40,819 nt of DNA from Pirellula staleyi DSM 6068. GTDB lineage: Bacteria; Planctomycetota; Planctomycetia; Pirellulales; Pirellulaceae. This document shows positions 30,389 through 40,350 of this stretch, one piece after another. Location: NCBI GenBank assembly GCA_945870455.1, contig CAMBSL010000023.1, positions 1 to 40,819 of the forward strand. The letters are read 5' to 3'. Position 1 is the first letter of the stretch. Each line of letters begins with the position of its first letter. The notes beneath the pieces were generated by a model. That model made no database searches. It was not told the origin of the DNA and saw only the letters and a list, made by a program, of their open reading frames with translations. A program made the translations under genes and the position numbers.

Positions 30389-32710
30389 TCATGCGCTTGG
30401 ATTGCGGTTGAATTTCTGGAATGGCAGACGAACACCTGCTACAAAGAACTGATCTGCCCGCAAAGGGTCTGGCGGCGTGTAGCCAGCTTGGCCAGCAACC
30501 GTTACCACATCGTCTTGGTCCACTCCGTCTCCACTCACCCCAAATCCGCCAACGAGAGTTTTACTCATCCCCTTGTAAATCGGGGTGCTTCCTGGAAAGA
30601 AAACGATGCCATTTTGATTGAAAAGATTGGCAGGGTCTCGGAAATTTCTTGACGCGTTGAACGAATCGAAAGAGAGAACCGTCGCCGTGCTCGAACCGTA
30701 AACCGATGCTGGTAACGGATTGGCGGGTGCCAGATTCTCAGCGGTTGCAGGATTGATTCCGGGCATGGTCAGAATGCTGAAATCGCCAGGACCCGCAAGG
30801 GCTCCGGTCGGATAGCGTGGACCCGCAAGAAAACGGAATGTTCGATTCGTGAAAGCGGTCTTGCGGGGCACATCTCCAATCGCATCGTTGTTTGCATCGA
30901 CTTGATCGGCTGCAACCAATCGGTCGCTTGCATAGTAAGAGGTGTTGCGGGCCTTGGCGACAGCGACATCGATGGAGAAGATCGTGGCGTCTGGCATTCG
31001 ATAGAGACCTAAAACTTCACCCGTTGAGTCGGTAACGGCGAAAACCATTTTCGTTTTCGCACCTGCCTTAAACGTTTTCAAATCGAGTCGAATGGCGGCG
31101 CGTGTCTTATTCGCTTCGCTGATCCCTTGCTGAATAATCGTGTTTACGTCGGAAGCAAAAACCGCATCAACGCTCGAACCGTGAGGATTGACAAGCCAAC
31201 CTTCAGGCACGCTCTGCCCTGGCAAAGCAAGCGCTCCACCCGGCGTTACTTTCTGATCGACGCCAGAATTGGTGCCGCGTCCACCGCCGTTTCTTCGACC
31301 TACCTGGAATACCTGTTGTTGGCCTGTGGCTGTATTCGCCCGAGTCGGGGTTGGTCCATAAATCTCGAGAGTGATGCCTACCAAGTCGATGCGCCCGTTG
31401 ATGCCTCCGAATTCACCTCGAGAAGGTGCCGTCCCTTCGAACTCCTTCACTGGCATCGGATTGGTTCCAGCCACGGTGCCACCTGCGGCAAAGAATGCAA
31501 TGAACTCGGCTTCAAGTGCTTTGGGTGCATTCAATCGCGACAGCTCAGATTGTGGACCTGCTTTGCCGCGGGCGGACGCATGAACAAAGCCCTGCTCATA
31601 AGTTGCGTAGCCGTCTTTTCCCGGAAAGAAAACGCCAATACCTCCAACGAGAACCGGTTTGCCATTGCTGAACTTATAGAGTGGTATCCCGCCAGGCATG
31701 GTCGCAATGCCTCTACTTTGTGCAAAGGGTAGTCTGCCCGATTGTGTGCCGTACGACTCTGGAAAGAGCTTCATGTAGTCTTTGGCAGCGGTTGGCACTT
31801 GGTCCAAATTGACATTGAATCGTGCACTCAACGCGATGTCATCGACAGTACCCTTGATACCGTCAGCCCCTGAGTTCGACTTCCCATCGCGACTTTGATG
31901 CTCGATTGCGAACAAGTCGACCAGGGGTGTCGATGTAATTTGAGGAGGGAAGTGCCCGCCCAGTCCAATCGGTGCGACAAAACCCGGTCCACGCTTGTTC
32001 GAATTCAAGTCTTGGATGTTTGGGTTCGATTCCACTTCGCGTTGGGTAATGGTCGATTGGCTAATGAATCGAACGGTGCGCGACGTTATGGGTGCTTCGC
32101 CATTCGAAAAGAACGCGGCCGTTCTGGCTTTCGCAACCGCCCCATCGATGGCGAACACAAGATCGCTTTCGCGTCCAGCGAATGTATTGACGACATCCTG
32201 TTCGGTTCTCACACCCAAGATCTGACCCGCCCGATCGACGATTGCGATAATCGCGTCGTTGCTAGTCGTTGCTCGCGATGCACGCTCAAGAAGCTTCTTT
32301 ACTTCCAAGTCTGATATTTGAAGAGATGCCGGTTCGGCTTCTGCAGGTTCCGCCATGTCGAGTGGATCGGGTGCAGTTGACACGTTGGGTTCTGGATTCA
32401 GGAGCGTTTCATCGGACTCGTTGAAAGCATTGATGACCGATAGAGCATCGAGGGCCGTTACGCTGCCATCCGCATCCACGTCCAGATAGACGCTTGACTC
32501 CCCATCGCTATAGGTGATGGTGTCGATTCGATAGGAAGAGCGATTCAGAACATTGATGACGATCAATGCATCCAATGGAGAAAGCTGCGAATCGCCATCG
32601 ACGTCCTGTGGGAAGATCGTGTTGTGAATGGGAGCGACCGCCATCAAGTCGCGAGCTTCCAACCGCTCTAAACCCAACTTTCGTTTGCTTTTTCGATTGC
32701 GATTGAACAT
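30389..32710 (-). CDS. Secreted dockerin-like protein with two HbpS/GlcG (DUF336)-like heme-binding domains
   Basis: 773 aa; LGLERLEARDLMAV N-terminal motif; dockerin-like DVDGDSQLSPLDALIVINVLN and DVDADGSVTALDALSVINAFN; two HbpS-like segments (IAIVDRAGQILGV...DLVFAIDGAVAKARTAAFFS and VFAVTDSTGEVLGLYRMPDATIFSIDVAVAKARNTSYYAS). Confidence 0.8.
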   Translation of the reverse strand: MFNRNRKSKRKLGLERLEARDLMAVAPIHNTIFPQDVDGDSQLSPLDALIVINVLNRSSYRIDTITYSDGESSVYLDVDADGSVTALDALSVINAFNESDETLLNPEPNVSTAPDPLDMAEPAEAEPASLQISDLEVKKLLERASRATTSNDAIIAIVDRAGQILGVRTEQDVVNTFAGRESDLVFAIDGAVAKARTAAFFSNGEAPITSRTVRFISQSTITQREVESNPNIQDLNSNKRGPGFVAPIGLGGHFPPQITSTPLVDLFAIEHQSRDGKSNSGADGIKGTVDDIALSARFNVNLDQVPTAAKDYMKLFPESYGTQSGRLPFAQSRGIATMPGGIPLYKFSNGKPVLVGGIGVFFPGKDGYATYEQGFVHASARGKAGPQSELSRLNAPKALEAEFIAFFAAGGTVAGTNPMPVKEFEGTAPSRGEFGGINGRIDLVGITLEIYGPTPTRANTATGQQQVFQVGRRNGGGRGTNSGVDQKVTPGGALALPGQSVPEGWLVNPHGSSVDAVFASDVNTIIQQGISEANKTRAAIRLDLKTFKAGAKTKMVFAVTDSTGEVLGLYRMPDATIFSIDVAVAKARNTSYYASDRLVAADQVDANNDAIGDVPRKTAFTNRTFRFLAGPRYPTGALAGPGDFSILTMPGINPATAENLAPANPLPASVYGSSTATVLSFDSFNASRNFRDPANLFNQNGIVFFPGSTPIYKGMSKTLVGGFGVSGDGVDQDDVVTVAGQAGYTPPDPLRADQFFVAGVRLPFQKFNRNPSA

Positions 32711-32961
32711 TCAATTTGATCCGATCTTGACCTTCCAACACTCAGGCGAGAGGCGGACAGAAACGTATCAGTCTTGGGTGGAACCGCCCAGAAGGCTGCA
32801 AGAAGCCATCCAAGAACTATACCTCCCGGTGCCGAATTCGCAACAATTTATGCTTGCATTGCCGGTTTGGCGTCAAAGTCCTCGCAATTCCTACGTTAGT
32901 TTGTTTTCCATTCCACTTCATGCGCCATGCGGACCGATAGGCCTTATGGAGTCAACACTAT

Positions 32962-34941
32962 GTGACTTCGTTCGATTTATTTTTGGGAATCTGTTGGCTT
33001 GTGTTCAAGAAACCGTACACAGCTATCTTTGGATGGATTTTGTGGGTAAGTCCCATTTGCGATTGGAAGATCGCGTTTGGGCAAGCGTCCGCAGTTAGTA
33101 CTCCTTCGAACTCGCCGAATGAGACCCATCGTTTTTCGTTTCGGGATGGAGGGCTTGGACAATCCAACCCGCCGACTGAACCGAAAAGCCTTGCGTCACC
33201 AGATAGTGAGAATAGTGTTCTTCCGCCATTCGAATCGTACCCGCCAGAAACAGCACCGTACTTTCGAACTCCCTTTCAAGCGCCACTTGGCTTCACGGGC
33301 CCAAGCTCAGTCGCGCCAACTGAGTCGCAGAGTACCGGCCACTTCGTTCCGATCGAAGATCGATGGCGAATCGGCTCACCTACCTGGGATCGATACGGCA
33401 AGGGCCATCCCGTTGGGGATGACTACCCGTTTGTGCAGGGTGCTTGGTACGATCCGTTCAACCAAAATGTGCTTAAGGGCGATTTTCCAATTGCCGGACA
33501 AGACACATTCCTTAAGTTCCAGTTCAGACAGCTAAACCTTTTCGAGTATCGCCAAACGCCCATTCCAACCACGCCGTTTGAAGCGACGCAAAATCCATCC
33601 GAAAATGAGTTTTTTGGCAACCCGAACCAGTTCTTTTTCACGCAGACCAACTCCGCCGCGTTCGACCTTTTCAAAGGAGATGCTGCATTTAAGCCTGTTG
33701 ATTGGCGGCTGAGGATGAACGTGATCTTTAATCAGAACTATCTCAAGGTTCAAGAGTTGGGGGTCGTCTCTCCGGACGTTCGCAAAGGCACGAATCGCCA
33801 CAAGACGGATTGGGCGATTGAGGAATGGTTCTACGAAACGAAGATTGCGGACATGAGTCCCAACTACGATTTCATTTCGGTGCGTGCTGGTTCGCAGCCG
33901 TTCACCAGTGACTTTCGCGGCTTTATCTTCTCCGATATCAACCGCGGAGTCCGACTCTTTGGAAATCGACTGAGCAACCAAGACCAATACAATGTCATCT
34001 TTTTCGACCAAACCGAAAAGGATACGAACAGCTTGCTCAATACATTCGATGACAGACACCAAAATACGCTGATCATGAACTACTATCGGCAGGACTTTGT
34101 GTTTCCCGGTTACAACACCGAACTCAGCTTCCATTACAATCGCGACAAGGCGAGTACGGAGTTTGACCGAAATGGTTTTCTGGTCCGGCCTGACCCGGTT
34201 GGAGTATTCTCACCTCACCAAGTGGATTCGTACTATCTCGGTTGGGCAGGCAATGGGCACATCAATCGCTACAACATCAGCCACGCATTGTATTACGTCA
34301 CGGGTACCGACGAGTTGAATCCGATCGCCGGCCAGCCTCAAACGATCAGTGCTTTTATGGGAGCTCTCGAGCTATCCTACGATCGCGATTGGGCTCGATT
34401 TCGATGTTCCTACTTCTATGCATCCGGAGATAGCGACCCCAATGACAGCCGTGCTACCGGCTTTGACGCCATCTTCGACAACCCGAATTTTGCAGGCGGT
34501 GAATTCAGCTATTGGAATAGACAGCAAATCAAATTGTTCGGCGTTAATTTAGTGAATCGACAAAGCCTTTTGCCTAACTTGCGGAGCAGTAAATTTCAGG
34601 GGCAAACGAATTTCGTTAATCCTGGTATTCAGCTCGTCAACACGGGCTTTGATGCGGATCTGACAACGAAGACCAAACTCATCACAAATGCCAACTATCT
34701 TTGGTTCAACCACACAGCCCCATTGGAGGCGTTGGTTTTCCAAAACAACATTCGCAGCCAAATCGGTCTGGACTTGAGTGTTGGGTTTGAATACCGTCCG
34801 TGCCTCAACAACAACGTAATCTTTGTCAGTGGCTTGTCAGGCCTCATCGTTGGCAACGGATTTCGCGACTTGTATCAACCGCTCAATGGGCATGTTAGCA
34901 ACCTTGCGGCGGGATTTTTCGAGGCCGCTTTCGAGTATTAA
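32962..34941 (+). CDS. Putative outer-membrane beta-barrel (porin-like) protein
   Basis: 659 aa; N-terminal signal-like region, alternating aromatic/hydrophobic strands (e.g. YNTELSFHYNRDKASTEFDRNG, LELSYDRDWARFRCSYFYASGD), terminal aromatic ...FFEAAFEY; two bases before the multiheme cytochrome gene. Confidence 0.65.
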   Translation: MTSFDLFLGICWLVFKKPYTAIFGWILWVSPICDWKIAFGQASAVSTPSNSPNETHRFSFRDGGLGQSNPPTEPKSLASPDSENSVLPPFESYPPETAPYFRTPFQAPLGFTGPSSVAPTESQSTGHFVPIEDRWRIGSPTWDRYGKGHPVGDDYPFVQGAWYDPFNQNVLKGDFPIAGQDTFLKFQFRQLNLFEYRQTPIPTTPFEATQNPSENEFFGNPNQFFFTQTNSAAFDLFKGDAAFKPVDWRLRMNVIFNQNYLKVQELGVVSPDVRKGTNRHKTDWAIEEWFYETKIADMSPNYDFISVRAGSQPFTSDFRGFIFSDINRGVRLFGNRLSNQDQYNVIFFDQTEKDTNSLLNTFDDRHQNTLIMNYYRQDFVFPGYNTELSFHYNRDKASTEFDRNGFLVRPDPVGVFSPHQVDSYYLGWAGNGHINRYNISHALYYVTGTDELNPIAGQPQTISAFMGALELSYDRDWARFRCSYFYASGDSDPNDSRATGFDAIFDNPNFAGGEFSYWNRQQIKLFGVNLVNRQSLLPNLRSSKFQGQTNFVNPGIQLVNTGFDADLTTKTKLITNANYLWFNHTAPLEALVFQNNIRSQIGLDLSVGFEYRPCLNNNVIFVSGLSGLIVGNGFRDLYQPLNGHVSNLAAGFFEAAFEY

Positions 34942-34943
34942 TA

Positions 34944-37900
34944 ATGATCCGACGTGCGAACGAGTCCTACGTTGGGTTGGCGTCCTTTGTCGTGGGCCTG
35001 CTCTTAGTCCATTCGCTCCTTGGTTCGTCGAATTGCATTGCGCAATCCGTTAGGCCGCTCACCCCACCGGGTGGCAAGTTTCACCAGCCAACCGTTCCTG
35101 CCAGCAGTGGAGAAGATCCCTGGGGACCAGCCAGACACCTTGGCATCGCGGGCAATGCTTCCTATCCGATCCCAAACGAACTCCTGCATACCGATTTGTA
35201 TCGGCAGTCAAAGCAAGAGGCGAATGCCAAAAGCGTTTCCTGTATTCAATGCCACACCGACGTGGGCAGCATGCATCCACCCAACACGGTCTCGATCGGT
35301 TGCACCGACTGCCATGGTGGAAATGCGAACGACTTCTCCAAGAAGGGCGCTCACATTCAACCACGCTATCCTGAGATGTGGAGCACTTCTGCGAATCCCG
35401 TTCGAAGTTATGCCCTGCTCAATCATGAGAGTCCCGAGTTCGTGCGATTCGCAAATCCCGGCGATCTTCGTGTCGCACACATCGCGTGTGGCCAATGCCA
35501 TGCCAACGAAGTGTTGCAACTCAGAAAAAGTATCATGACGCACGGTTGTATGCTTTGGGGCGCTGCCATCTATAACAACGGCGGCTCGCCAGAGAAATGG
35601 TCTCGCTATGGAGAAAGTTACTCCATGCACGGCAATCCGCAACGGCTCCAAACCGTTCCGGCACCTTCCCCGTACGAGATCGATCGAAAAGGGGTTCTCC
35701 CATTTCTTGATCCGTTGCCACGCTTTGAAGCGTCCCAGCCTGGCAATATTCTTCGAATCTTTGAACGGGGCGGTAGATTCCGTTCCGAAATCGGAATACC
35801 GGAACGCCTCGAAGAACCTGGCCGTCCTCGCGAGCGACTCAGCACGCGCGGGCTCGGGACCGAAAACAGAACCGACCCTGTGTTCATTGGTCTTCAGAAG
35901 ACCCGATTGCTTGATCCAACCCTGAACTTCCTAGGAACGAATGATCATCCAGGTGACTATCGCAGCAGCGGTTGCAGCGCGTGCCACGTTGTTTACGCAA
36001 ACGATCGTTCGCCCACCTCCTCGGGCCCGTTTGCCAAATATGGCCATCGTGGACGAGCTGCATCCGAGAAAGATGATTGGGTTAAGTACATCGACCCGAC
36101 CATTCCAAAGAACGAATCCGGACATCCGATTCAACACATGTTCACCAACAGCATGCCAACCAGTCAATGTATGGTTTGTCACATGCACCCAGGTACAAAT
36201 GTTCTCAACTCTTATCTAGGCTACATGTGGTGGGACAACGAGACGGATGGGCAGTCCATGTATCCAAAAGAACAGCACGATCCAACCGCCGAGCAATTGG
36301 TTCAAGCTTCGATGTCCAATCCAGAAGAAGCTGCTGCCAGAGGACTATGGGGTGATCCAGAGTTTCTCAACAATGTGAGCGACCTCAACCCAAAACTGAA
36401 CCACACTCAATTTGCAGATTTTCATGGACATGGATGGGTTTACCGAGCCGTTTTCAAAAAAGACCGAACGGGAAAGTTGCTTGACCATACGGGAAAAACA
36501 GTTGAAAGCCCAACGACAAAAGATCTGATGGCCGCAGTAGCGCCGTCGGAACAATTTGAGAAGATCCATGGGAAACAACGCGATGGTGTGCCTGTTCATA
36601 TGATGGATATCCACATGGAAAAGGGGATGCACTGCGTCGACTGCCACTTCTATCAAGACGGACATGGGGACACAAAACTCTATGGCGAAGTGCGTGCGGC
36701 TATCGAGATCCAATGCATCGATTGCCATGGTGATGCCAGAGCCTCGCTTGTTGACAAAGTCGAGCAACTACTCAAAGCGGGCCAGCCACCCAAACTACCT
36801 ACCAGCGGCCCCGCATCCGCAAAAGAACCAACCAATCTCCTGGCTCTGCGAACGGCCTTTGGACAGCCTCGCTTTGAGATCAAACGAGCACCGGGCAAAA
36901 AACCAAAGCTCATCCAACGCAGCAACGTGGAAAAGGACCTCATTTGGGAAGTGACTCAAACCGCAGACACCATCGATCCCCTCAGCGAGGAATACAACCC
37001 AAAGAGCCATATCGCAAAAACGGTTCGATTGGATGACGACGGCGCGATGCGTTGGGGAGACACATTGCCCAATGAAAAATGTGCCCATCAAAACAATAAC
37101 ATGAGTTGTATCGCTTGCCACAGCTCTTGGAATCCAAGTTGCTTTGGATGCCACCTGCCGCAAAAAGCAAATATCAAAGCCCCGAATCTGCACGGGCTGG
37201 GGGAGGTCTCTCGAAATCGAATTTCCTACAACTTTCAAACTCTGAGAGACGACGTATACATGTTGGCTCGCGATGGTAATGTCACGGGAAACCGCATCGG
37301 ACCCGCCCGCAGTTCATGCGCAATTCACGTCGGCAGTTACAACGGCAATCGCGAATCCGTCTATGTTCAGCAACAGACGATCAGCGGCGAGGGTCTGAGC
37401 GGCATCGCCTTCAGCACGAATGTCCCGCACACTGTCCGAGGTGGTCCTGACTGGAAAACAGCACCACCCGGTCATGCGTCACCCGGCACCTCGGAAACGA
37501 AATCCTGTACCGACTGTCACGTCTCCGTCAACAACGACAACAACGCCATCATGTCTCAATTGCTCATGCAAGGGACAGGGTATACCAATTTTGTGGGCCG
37601 CTATTGCTGGGTTGGGGCTGGAGAGCATGGCCTGGAAGGAGTCGTTGTAACGGAACAGAGCGAACCGCAAGCGGTACTCGGCAGCTCGCTGCATTCGATA
37701 GCCTACCCGGAGAACTACAAGGAACATCTCAAACATCATCGAGAACTAGAACATGCGCACGAACATCCAGGTCGAGATATTTTGGAGGTTTTGAGCCCAA
37801 AATATCGGAAACCTGAAGTGCTCTCGCTGCAACATCGGGGTGAATTCCTTTACGCAGCCTGCGGCGAAGGCGGCCTGCGAGTTTTCGACATTGCATTCAT

Positions 37901-39023
37901 CGATCACAAGGCATTCTCAGAAAGAATTACCACCGCGCCGGTTTCACCGCTGGGGCAGCGTCTCTATGTTCGAACCAAGTTCGCGACCGCTGTAGCAGCC
38001 CCAACGACCATCGCTCCCGACCCGACACGAACCCATCGACCGGAGAACTTCGAATCCCCCGTCCATCCGCTTTACGCGTACATTTACGTAACGGACAAGG
38101 TCGAGGGGTTGGTCATGGTCAGCGCAGCAACGCTGCTCGACGGAAACCCATCCAACAATTTCTTGGAGCGAGGCGTCACCTTCAACCCCAACAATATCCT
38201 GTGCGGCGCCAAAGCCATAACGATCGCTGGGCATTATGCCTACATTTGTTGCGATGCCGGACTCGTTGTGGTTGACCTCAGCAACCCAAAACAGCCCGTT
38301 GTTTGCTCCGTCGTCGGAAACGATGTACTTCATCATCCCAAAAGTGTCGCGGTGCAGTTCCGATACGCGTTTGTGTGCGATGAAGAAGGAGTCAAGGTTC
38401 TAGACGCAACGGAACTAGCCTCCCCGCAGCATGTCCATACTGTCCCGTTGCATGAAGCGAACAGCATCTACCTAGGGCGCACGTATGCCTATGTGGCGGG
38501 AGGCAAGGAGGGGCTAGTCATACTCGATATCACCAACCCAGAATTGGCTTTCATTGATCAGATCTACAATGCAGGTGGACAAATCGACGATGCGCATGAC
38601 GTGAAGCTCGGTATCACCAACGTTAGCCAGTTTGCGTACGTTGCAGACGGGAAAAACGGACTGAGAGTTCTTCAATTGACCAGTCCAGAGCTACCTGGGA
38701 ACGATGGATTTTCACCGCGACCGAACCCGTGCTTGATCGCAACTCGCAAGCTTCCAAAAAATGGTCATGCCTTGTGCGTGTCGCGGGGCGTAGATCGTGA
38801 CCGAGCGGTCGACGAATCGGGCAATCAAATCGCCGTATTCGGTCGCGTGGGTGCAAGGCCGCTCAACAAGGAAGAGTCAACGCGAATGCACCGCCGGAAA
38901 AATGGTAGCCTTTTTCAAGTGAGCGACGACCCATTCGACCCGCGAACGTACCAGTTCCCAGTCGAACTCAGGCCATCCCTCCGAACCGGGGAGCAAGCTC
39001 TTCCGCCCATCGTTCGCAGATAA
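34944..39023 (+). CDS. Multiheme c-type cytochrome (10 CxxCH motifs) with C-terminal LVIVD-type beta-propeller
   Basis: 1359 aa; CIQCH, CTDCH, CGQCH, CSACH, CMVCH, CVDCH, CIDCH, CIACH, CFGCH, CTDCH; then LRVFDIAFID, LVVVDLSNPKQPVV, VKVLDATELASPQHV, LVILDITNPELAF, LRVLQLTSPEL repeats. Confidence 0.88.
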   Translation: MIRRANESYVGLASFVVGLLLVHSLLGSSNCIAQSVRPLTPPGGKFHQPTVPASSGEDPWGPARHLGIAGNASYPIPNELLHTDLYRQSKQEANAKSVSCIQCHTDVGSMHPPNTVSIGCTDCHGGNANDFSKKGAHIQPRYPEMWSTSANPVRSYALLNHESPEFVRFANPGDLRVAHIACGQCHANEVLQLRKSIMTHGCMLWGAAIYNNGGSPEKWSRYGESYSMHGNPQRLQTVPAPSPYEIDRKGVLPFLDPLPRFEASQPGNILRIFERGGRFRSEIGIPERLEEPGRPRERLSTRGLGTENRTDPVFIGLQKTRLLDPTLNFLGTNDHPGDYRSSGCSACHVVYANDRSPTSSGPFAKYGHRGRAASEKDDWVKYIDPTIPKNESGHPIQHMFTNSMPTSQCMVCHMHPGTNVLNSYLGYMWWDNETDGQSMYPKEQHDPTAEQLVQASMSNPEEAAARGLWGDPEFLNNVSDLNPKLNHTQFADFHGHGWVYRAVFKKDRTGKLLDHTGKTVESPTTKDLMAAVAPSEQFEKIHGKQRDGVPVHMMDIHMEKGMHCVDCHFYQDGHGDTKLYGEVRAAIEIQCIDCHGDARASLVDKVEQLLKAGQPPKLPTSGPASAKEPTNLLALRTAFGQPRFEIKRAPGKKPKLIQRSNVEKDLIWEVTQTADTIDPLSEEYNPKSHIAKTVRLDDDGAMRWGDTLPNEKCAHQNNNMSCIACHSSWNPSCFGCHLPQKANIKAPNLHGLGEVSRNRISYNFQTLRDDVYMLARDGNVTGNRIGPARSSCAIHVGSYNGNRESVYVQQQTISGEGLSGIAFSTNVPHTVRGGPDWKTAPPGHASPGTSETKSCTDCHVSVNNDNNAIMSQLLMQGTGYTNFVGRYCWVGAGEHGLEGVVVTEQSEPQAVLGSSLHSIAYPENYKEHLKHHRELEHAHEHPGRDILEVLSPKYRKPEVLSLQHRGEFLYAACGEGGLRVFDIAFIDHKAFSERITTAPVSPLGQRLYVRTKFATAVAAPTTIAPDPTRTHRPENFESPVHPLYAYIYVTDKVEGLVMVSAATLLDGNPSNNFLERGVTFNPNNILCGAKAITIAGHYAYICCDAGLVVVDLSNPKQPVVCSVVGNDVLHHPKSVAVQFRYAFVCDEEGVKVLDATELASPQHVHTVPLHEANSIYLGRTYAYVAGGKEGLVILDITNPELAFIDQIYNAGGQIDDAHDVKLGITNVSQFAYVADGKNGLRVLQLTSPELPGNDGFSPRPNPCLIATRKLPKNGHALCVSRGVDRDRAVDESGNQIAVFGRVGARPLNKEESTRMHRRKNGSLFQVSDDPFDPRTYQFPVELRPSLRTGEQALPPIVRR

Positions 39024-39048: not shown

Positions 39049-40350
39049 TCAATTGATCCAAAAAGCGAAAAAGGGAAGATTGCCCTGGAAAGCGTCGGAC
39101 AATTCATTCCAAGCTTGGAAGTCGATTAATTTACCGGACTCGATGAATGGGGCCACGCCAGTCCCCTGAATCCACAACACCAAGTCAAAGGTTTGAGGAT
39201 TGGTAAAAACTTTGCGCAAATTGATGCCAAGCTTTGAGTTGAACTCGACATTATTACTCCGACCAAAAAAATTGAAACTGTTCCTGTTCTTAACACCTCG
39301 CCAGAATGGCAACAACTCTTTTCCCTGGAGTACCAATTCCACTTGATTCAAAACTCGCTCCCAATCGTCTCCCATCCGATTACCTGGTCGACCAGCGAGC
39401 ACGATGGAAGTCTGGTTTCTCCCTGGGAGCCATTCGCGATCATTATCGGTCTCTTCTCGAATCAGCCGCCACGTTTCCCGACTCAGTTGAATGACTTGCT
39501 CAAAATGCTCCAGCGATTTCTTCATCCGATCAGGCTCGATTACTTGAAAGTTGATCAAATGGATGAATGCGATAAAATCAAAGATCTGATTAGACGCCCA
39601 TTCAATTTCATCCAATTCGTCAGCAAAAAAACCATAGGGAGATTGAACGCGAGGAAAGAAAAGGTGCGCGGTTCTTTCGAATGCGCTTTGCCAGTCATGA
39701 GCCAATGCAAACTGAACCACACCAGAAAGGACGTTGATGTAGCCGCGCAACCAAAGGACATCTGCATCGTCAAACGCGAACTCAATCGAATTGACACCGA
39801 CATTGTTGTTGGCAACACCAGCCGGTACCGAAGACCAGCCCATAATCGCGCCCCAAACTGCTTCGTTCGGCGTCGATTTGCCGTTGCTATCCAAATCAAG
39901 GCTTATCTCATTGATGGCGATAGGAATCTTGATTCCGTTCGGCTTGAAATCCGACAGGGTTTTTTCTGCTTTTGACAATCGATCCAACAGATTTTGCAGT
40001 ACGGTTCGCGCTCTAGCATAAGATATTTCTTCTGGATTAGGATTGTTCGGAATCGGCATGCGCATGAGGATGTTTCGATTGGGCCGCGCAGGATCCAGAC
40101 CATAACGATAGTAGTCTTGCCCCAGTCCTTCGATGGCTCGCAAGAACTGGAGGACACCCAAAGAGACTCGGATGCTGTTGTCTTGAGGAGTCTTTTGGAG
40201 CAATCCGTCAAATTCTTTCTCGCCTGCAACAAGTTGACCCTCCCTCACGTACCCGCGGAATTTTTTATAGTTGGCGTTGTCGTCCCCGAAGGTCCTATCC
40301 GACGCAGAAAATAGCGCGAAAAGTACCAATGCAATGATTCGAAGGTGCAT
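39049..40350 (-). CDS. Secreted hypothetical protein, possibly TPR-like N-terminus
   Basis: 433 aa; signal peptide MHLRIIALVLFALFSASDRTFG; EFDGLLQKTPQDNSIRVSLGVLQFLRAIEGLGQ; convergent with the cytochrome gene. Confidence 0.7.
   Translation of the reverse strand: MHLRIIALVLFALFSASDRTFGDDNANYKKFRGYVREGQLVAGEKEFDGLLQKTPQDNSIRVSLGVLQFLRAIEGLGQDYYRYGLDPARPNRNILMRMPIPNNPNPEEISYARARTVLQNLLDRLSKAEKTLSDFKPNGIKIPIAINEISLDLDSNGKSTPNEAVWGAIMGWSSVPAGVANNNVGVNSIEFAFDDADVLWLRGYINVLSGVVQFALAHDWQSAFERTAHLFFPRVQSPYGFFADELDEIEWASNQIFDFIAFIHLINFQVIEPDRMKKSLEHFEQVIQLSRETWRLIREETDNDREWLPGRNQTSIVLAGRPGNRMGDDWERVLNQVELVLQGKELLPFWRGVKNRNSFNFFGRSNNVEFNSKLGINLRKVFTNPQTFDLVLWIQGTGVAPFIESGKLIDFQAWNELSDAFQGNLPFFAFWIN

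Follow-up and report, generated by a model that had tools for sequence, protein, structure and literature searches.

Does the DNA described here encode a route by which electrons could cross the outer membrane of a planctomycete? The window, the whole stretch of 40,819 nucleotides of contig CAMBSL010000023.1 from a Pirellula staleyi DSM 6068 assembly (GCA_945870455.1), carries two open reading frames (ORFs) on the forward strand, at 32962-34941 and 34944-39023, separated by two bases. The original prediction, made from the letters alone, had read them as an outer-membrane beta-barrel gene with its stop at 34941 and, two bases on, the gene for a secreted multiheme cytochrome, together a candidate electron conduit. 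The ORFs agree with this layout. The best-known conduits for electrons through the outer membrane are those of Shewanella, Geobacter and iron oxidisers, whereas the Planctomycetota are mostly aerobic heterotrophs. The system appears to be an electron path through the cell envelope that has not been described before, and we lean towards the view that the pair forms the outer-membrane terminus of an electron-transfer chain spanning the planctomycete envelope. If this is true, planctomycetes would have an unsuspected means of exchanging electrons with their surroundings, one coupled to NADH and perhaps also to signalling by cyclic nucleotides.

A barrel and a decaheme cytochrome inherited as a unit

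The barrel gene most likely runs from 33001 to 34941 (forward strand, 646 amino acids) with a GTG start. It had been placed from 32962, but relatives with 81-91% identity have in-frame stops just 5' of a conserved GTG at 33001; 32962 was therefore rejected as the start. The N-terminus (VFKKPYTAIFGWILW...FGQASA) reads as a Sec-type signal. In the AlphaFold2 model, built from a 52-sequence alignment, 18 long antiparallel strands span residues 182-658 in the numbering from 32962 (pLDDT 65.8, pTM 0.65), and the last residue is Tyr. The N-terminal 180 residues were unmodelled, yet residues ~105-180 are conserved. AlgE entries ranked first in Foldseek (E 2.6e-14; TM-score ~0.6-0.68 by target), and the 50 best matches listed were AlgE and other porins. 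AlgE is an 18-stranded outer-membrane porin that exports alginate. By this model the product of the first gene is an outer-membrane barrel of 18 strands with an AlgE-like fold. A barrel had been predicted originally, and a non-barrel fold would have counted against that prediction.

The barrel sequence itself had no match in Pfam, NCBIfam, PHROGs or the PDB. Alginate_exp (PF13372) gave weak matches in 3 of the 52 family members (best E 0.0031) and no match to the window barrel, which thus does not qualify for this family by the Pfam cut-off. Identity to AlgE is ~12%, the conserved N-terminal region is unmodelled, and no alginate genes were seen in the neighbourhood clusters.

The second gene (34944-39023, forward strand) encodes a secreted decaheme c-type cytochrome of 1359 amino acids with a C-terminal LVIVD beta-propeller. 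It contains ten CxxCH motifs (residues 100, 120, 182, 344, 409, 564, 591, 722, 733 and 855); shuffles of the sequence contained 0.04 on average and never more than 2, and 108 of 111 related loci retain all ten, which bears out the predicted heme count. The propeller that had also been predicted was recovered both as a Pfam match to LVIVD repeats (E 2.6e-20) and in a structure model of residues 74-1273, in which the propeller was confident and the heme region poorly modelled. Foldseek matched this model to many propellers, and the matches listed cover the propeller only. A profile of the cytochrome had no match in the PDB.

The presence of the pair was compared in a close set of 60 relatives (20 with and 40 without the pair, weak propeller-only matches being left out) and in a sample of 393 genomes from the phylum, 44 of which had a strong cytochrome match. 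The E-value cut-offs for strong matches were chosen after a clear gap in the scores was seen. In the close set the barrel was found in all 20 cytochrome-bearing relatives and in none of the 40 others (p 2e-16, by a Fisher test that ignores phylogeny). In the phylum sample, at a barrel threshold of E<1e-90, it was present in 43 of the 44 cytochrome-bearing genomes and in 0 of 349 others; the genomes are mostly metagenome-assembled genomes (MAGs), so absences can be gaps. The two genes are usually adjacent; where they are unlinked (e.g. G309, G325, G391, G397 and G422) the barrel sits elsewhere in the genome. Loss of the pair in relatives had been named as an outcome that would count against the prediction, and the pair was kept. 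These co-occurrence tests rule out a chance juxtaposition: the barrel-cytochrome pair is inherited as a unit.

Three genomes (G256, G302 and G326) carry distant barrel relatives (E ~1e-28 to 1e-30) together with only weak partial cytochrome matches. These are possibly an older or divergent version of the system.

An NADH-linked operon on a separate contig

Recurrent partners of the pair were found by clustering the neighbours across 81 loci. Besides the gene divergent from the barrel (below), they include an inner operon, which in the window genome lies on a separate contig, C69 (L190), all on the reverse strand: a b-type membrane protein (8771-7623), a membrane-anchored decaheme cytochrome with nine CxxCH motifs and one CxxxCH (7601-6129), a tetraheme cytochrome (6315-4735), a NuoE-NuoF fusion (4738-2870) and a HoxU/NuoG-like iron-sulphur (Fe-S) protein with cyclic-nucleotide-binding (cNMP) domains (2873-330). 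The same order was found in nearly all same-genus relatives examined. Pfam detected Complex1_51K (1.1e-42), NADH_4Fe-4S (2.9e-20) and a 2Fe-2S thioredoxin-like domain (1.7e-20), so that the 51K flavin mononucleotide (FMN)/NADH, 2Fe-2S and 4Fe-4S domains of a NuoEF/HoxF module were all above the Pfam cut-offs. Further matches in the operon were cNMP_binding (1.6e-22), many Fer4 domains and a HoxU-like one (5e-25). Among the predicted membrane helices of the b-type protein, five His are invariant.

This operon is co-inherited with the pair. In the close set, the anchored decaheme was present in 18 of 20 pair-bearing relatives, the Fe-S/cNMP protein in 19 (E<1e-100), the b-type protein in 18 (E<1e-30) and the NuoEF fusion in 16 (>500 bits), and each was found in 0 of the 40 others. 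Across the phylum sample the decaheme occurred in 32 of 44 cytochrome-bearing genomes and in 1 of 349 others. Within the window's own genus it separated 14 of 16 pair-bearing from 0 of 11 pair-lacking genomes, and because this split holds inside a genus, the concern about phylogeny in the Fisher tests is lessened. In 12 of the 32 phylum genomes tallied, no more than ~15 kb separate the decaheme from the cytochrome (rough binomial chance 6e-18, ignoring relatedness), and both halves of the system occur at one place in loci L138, L124, L131, L200, L201, L224 and L225. In L138, genes for the b-type protein, the decaheme and two pentahemes immediately precede the cytochrome. It had been noted that the pair lacks a separate MtrA-like cytochrome; this is true of the window, but the genome does encode an anchored decaheme on C69.

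The linkage bears on the proposal that the pair is co-inherited for some other role, such as polymer export or surface attachment, and that its association with the electron-transfer operon is no more than an ecological correlation. AlgE, the nearest fold, is an alginate exporter, and in the window genome the two halves are not linked. Furthermore, LVIVD repeats have been described in cell-surface proteins (PMC2447325). Against this, the ten heme motifs are conserved, the halves are linked in several lineages, and co-occurrence is near-perfect, also inside one genus. We regard this proposal as very improbable.

Genome G117 was the only one in the phylum sample with a strong anchored-decaheme match but no strong cytochrome or barrel match. 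In a pair-lacking genome of the same genus (L222:7217-12176), a paralogous cassette of Fe-S/cNMP, b-type and ten-heme genes was found without the barrel and the propeller cytochrome, and weak matches to such cassettes are present in many pair-lacking relatives. The inner module therefore has a more general relative.

A third gene is co-inherited next to the pair. The gene at 30389-32710 (reverse strand, 773 amino acids) encodes two HbpS-like domains (PF03928, Pfam 3.1e-15) and Dockerin_1 (2.1e-11). It was present in 20 of 20 pair-bearing and 1 of 40 pair-lacking relatives (p 5e-15), and the sole pair-lacking case is a 195-amino-acid fragment on a small contig. In 33 loci the gene lies next to the barrel gene and is transcribed away from it, and G021 has a further copy beside the inner operon. 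Its product is predicted to be extracellular and is likely a third component of the system.

In the chain that we favour, NADH would be oxidised in the cytoplasm by the NuoE-NuoF fusion and the HoxU/NuoG-like Fe-S protein with its cNMP-binding domains, and electrons would pass from FMN and Fe-S centres to the integral membrane b-type cytochrome. From there they may flow to the membrane-anchored periplasmic decaheme, on to the tetraheme or pentaheme cytochromes, and then to the decaheme-propeller cytochrome, which would be held at or in the 18-stranded barrel. This cytochrome could deliver electrons to, or accept them from, a putative partner outside the cell, where the HbpS-like dockerin protein would serve as an accessory. 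The analysis establishes which genes are present, their folds, heme motifs and domains, their co-inheritance and, in several lineages, their linkage; how and where the parts assemble, the flow of electrons with its direction, and gating by cyclic AMP or cyclic GMP are inferred.

Several observations weigh against such a chain. In the window genome the halves stand apart, and not every carrier of the pair has the full inner module: the decaheme is missing in 12 of the 44 pair-bearing phylum genomes at the threshold used, and the NuoEF fusion is absent from some pair-bearing relatives. Genome G017 (80% complete) is without the whole inner operon, and G007 is without the decaheme and b-type genes only. 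MtrB is a 26-stranded barrel. By formula, the backbone diameter of an 18-stranded barrel is ~33-34 Å versus ~47-48 Å for 26 strands, so an MtrA-like wire inside the narrower barrel would fit tightly. The cytochrome has 63% identity to that of a same-order relative, compared with 30% for the decaheme and tetraheme of the same genome; this higher conservation suits a specific enzyme better than a generic wire, and suggests a specific chemistry or a fixed interface and not a replaceable surface wire.

The reading can be extended, tentatively, to an NADH-driven conduit across both membranes that is gated by cyclic nucleotides. In it, cyclic AMP or cyclic GMP bound to the Fe-S subunit would switch the passage of electrons from cytoplasmic NADH, by way of b- and c-type hemes, to the AlgE-like barrel with its propeller cytochrome and an HbpS-like extracellular partner. 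We hold this at rather low confidence; it is suggested by an invariant cassette in the Fe-S subunit and by cyclase genes that cluster with the system. In the cNMP domain the pattern GEM.C...R.ATVV, that of the phosphate-binding cassette, is invariant in 9 of 9 aligned members. Of 95 loci, 19 have a class III adenylate/guanylate cyclase gene in the vicinity of the system, against an expectation of 0.7 that assumes two cyclases per genome throughout and treats related loci as separate, so that the enrichment is indicative only. In L124 and L131 the cyclase lies between the decaheme and the cytochrome; the window genome has two class III cyclase genes, neither of which adjoins system genes.

Relation to known conduits and to a porin with a reductase

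The original prediction compared the arrangement with the Mtr/Pcc (porin-cytochrome conduit) type. The comparison stands in so far as an outer-membrane barrel is encoded beside a multiheme c-type cytochrome that is conserved with it, and the co-inherited electron-transfer operon agrees with the proposed conduit function. It does not extend to homology. A profile of the barrel had no match up to E 1 in a PDB library that includes 6r2q, the MtrCAB structure, and no MtrB or PioB was among the 50 Foldseek matches listed. No MtrA-like periplasmic decaheme was found in the same operon in the window. As in MtrCAB/PioAB and OmbB-OmaB-OmcB, the barrel gene adjoins a multiheme cytochrome gene and the genome has a separate decaheme, the profile of which weakly matches a chain of 6r2q. 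In contrast to those systems, the barrel is modelled as 18-stranded and AlgE-like, one large propeller cytochrome is present, no sequence similarity to MtrB or MtrC was found, and the decaheme is encoded in a separate NADH-linked operon. By homology, the system does not belong to either the Mtr or the Geobacter Pcc family.

The only named relative of the cytochrome is ExtM, from the Geobacter extHIJKLMNOPQS cluster, in which ExtI is a porin, ExtM a 12-heme and ExtN a 10-heme cytochrome and ExtP a cytochrome b (PMC5877670). The planctomycete system resembles this cluster in having a porin-like barrel, a large multiheme cytochrome, a decaheme, a pentaheme and a b-type cytochrome. The NCBIfam ExtM model matches the window cytochrome weakly, in two co-linear segments (56.7 bits, with a cut-off of 800; 40.1 bits in the genome search), which places it outside the Ext family; none of 14 control genomes had a match to ExtM. 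Unlike ExtM, the cytochrome has 10 and not 12 hemes, and an added propeller. The system further differs from Ext in its NuoEF and cNMP-binding Fe-S proteins, and no Rieske, rhodanese or selenoprotein was seen among its recurrent neighbours. The window barrel has no NCBIfam match, a comparison that did not include the ExtI sequence directly.

ExtI has been discussed as a porin-type route for selenite in Geobacter (PMC5877670). The main rival explanation is of this kind: the barrel would be a substrate porin, and the cytochrome would reduce or oxidise some soluble compound in the periplasm or at the surface. The inner operon would give or take its electrons, and nothing would be wired through the outer membrane. 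The AlgE-like 18-stranded fold resembles channels that pass solutes, the non-heme residues of the cytochrome are unusually strongly conserved, and the weak co-linear match is to a protein from a selenite/tellurite operon. Because the barrel is narrow and the cytochrome so conserved, this explanation keeps substantial weight. However, a simple reductase would hardly need ten hemes and a propeller, the cytochrome sequence shows no catalytic heme motif of the CxxCK type, and the co-inherited HbpS/dockerin protein, of extracellular type, points outward. We consider a porin with a reductase a serious but less probable explanation than a trans-envelope chain ending in the pair.

The NADH end of that chain resembles HoxEFU/NuoEFG in its NuoE-NuoF fusion and HoxU/NuoG-like Fe-S protein. 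It differs in that the domains are fused, additional cNMP-binding and ferredoxin domains are present, and the coupling is to b- and c-type multiheme cytochromes and not to a hydrogenase or complex I. Electrons could also run inward, from external Fe(II), Mn(II) or a similar donor through the pair to the reduction of NAD+ by NuoEF. All of the proposed components are reversible in principle, and porin-cytochrome uptake systems such as PioAB exist (PMC6831781); but no energy source for the uphill reduction of NAD+ was identified, carbon fixation not having been checked in the genomes. Inward flow appears unlikely.

In the literature, planctomycete genomes with porin-cytochrome matches and an NrfD-type cluster have been reported (PMC10732223), with a gene set that differs from the present one. 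No description of the system in Planctomycetota was found in the open literature, a search whose cover leaves out most subscription journals.

Flanking DNA and distribution

The stretch between the divergent HbpS-like/dockerin and barrel genes (32711-33000) is presumed from the gene layout to be a shared regulatory region. A scan of this stretch for sigma-70-like sites found fewer than in shuffles, so no promoter is claimed. Downstream of the cytochrome, at 39049-40350 on the reverse strand, a secreted protein of 433 amino acids without a Pfam or NCBIfam match is encoded; it is absent from the recurrent neighbour clusters and probably unrelated to the pair.

More than 400 loci in the genome collection match. 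Of the 80 listed, nearly all are titled as planctomycetes; the others are MAGs named just 'bacterium' or, in one case, Bacteroidales. By their record titles the listed relatives fall in Pirellulaceae, Isosphaeraceae, Gemmatales and related planctomycetes, and the nearest among the matches listed are Pirellula MAGs. Cultured carriers are Rubripirellula obstinata, Roseiconus nitratireducens, Neorhodopirellula pilleata, Rhodopirellula maiorica, Singulisphaera sp. GP187 and Tautonia sociabilis, which makes the system testable.

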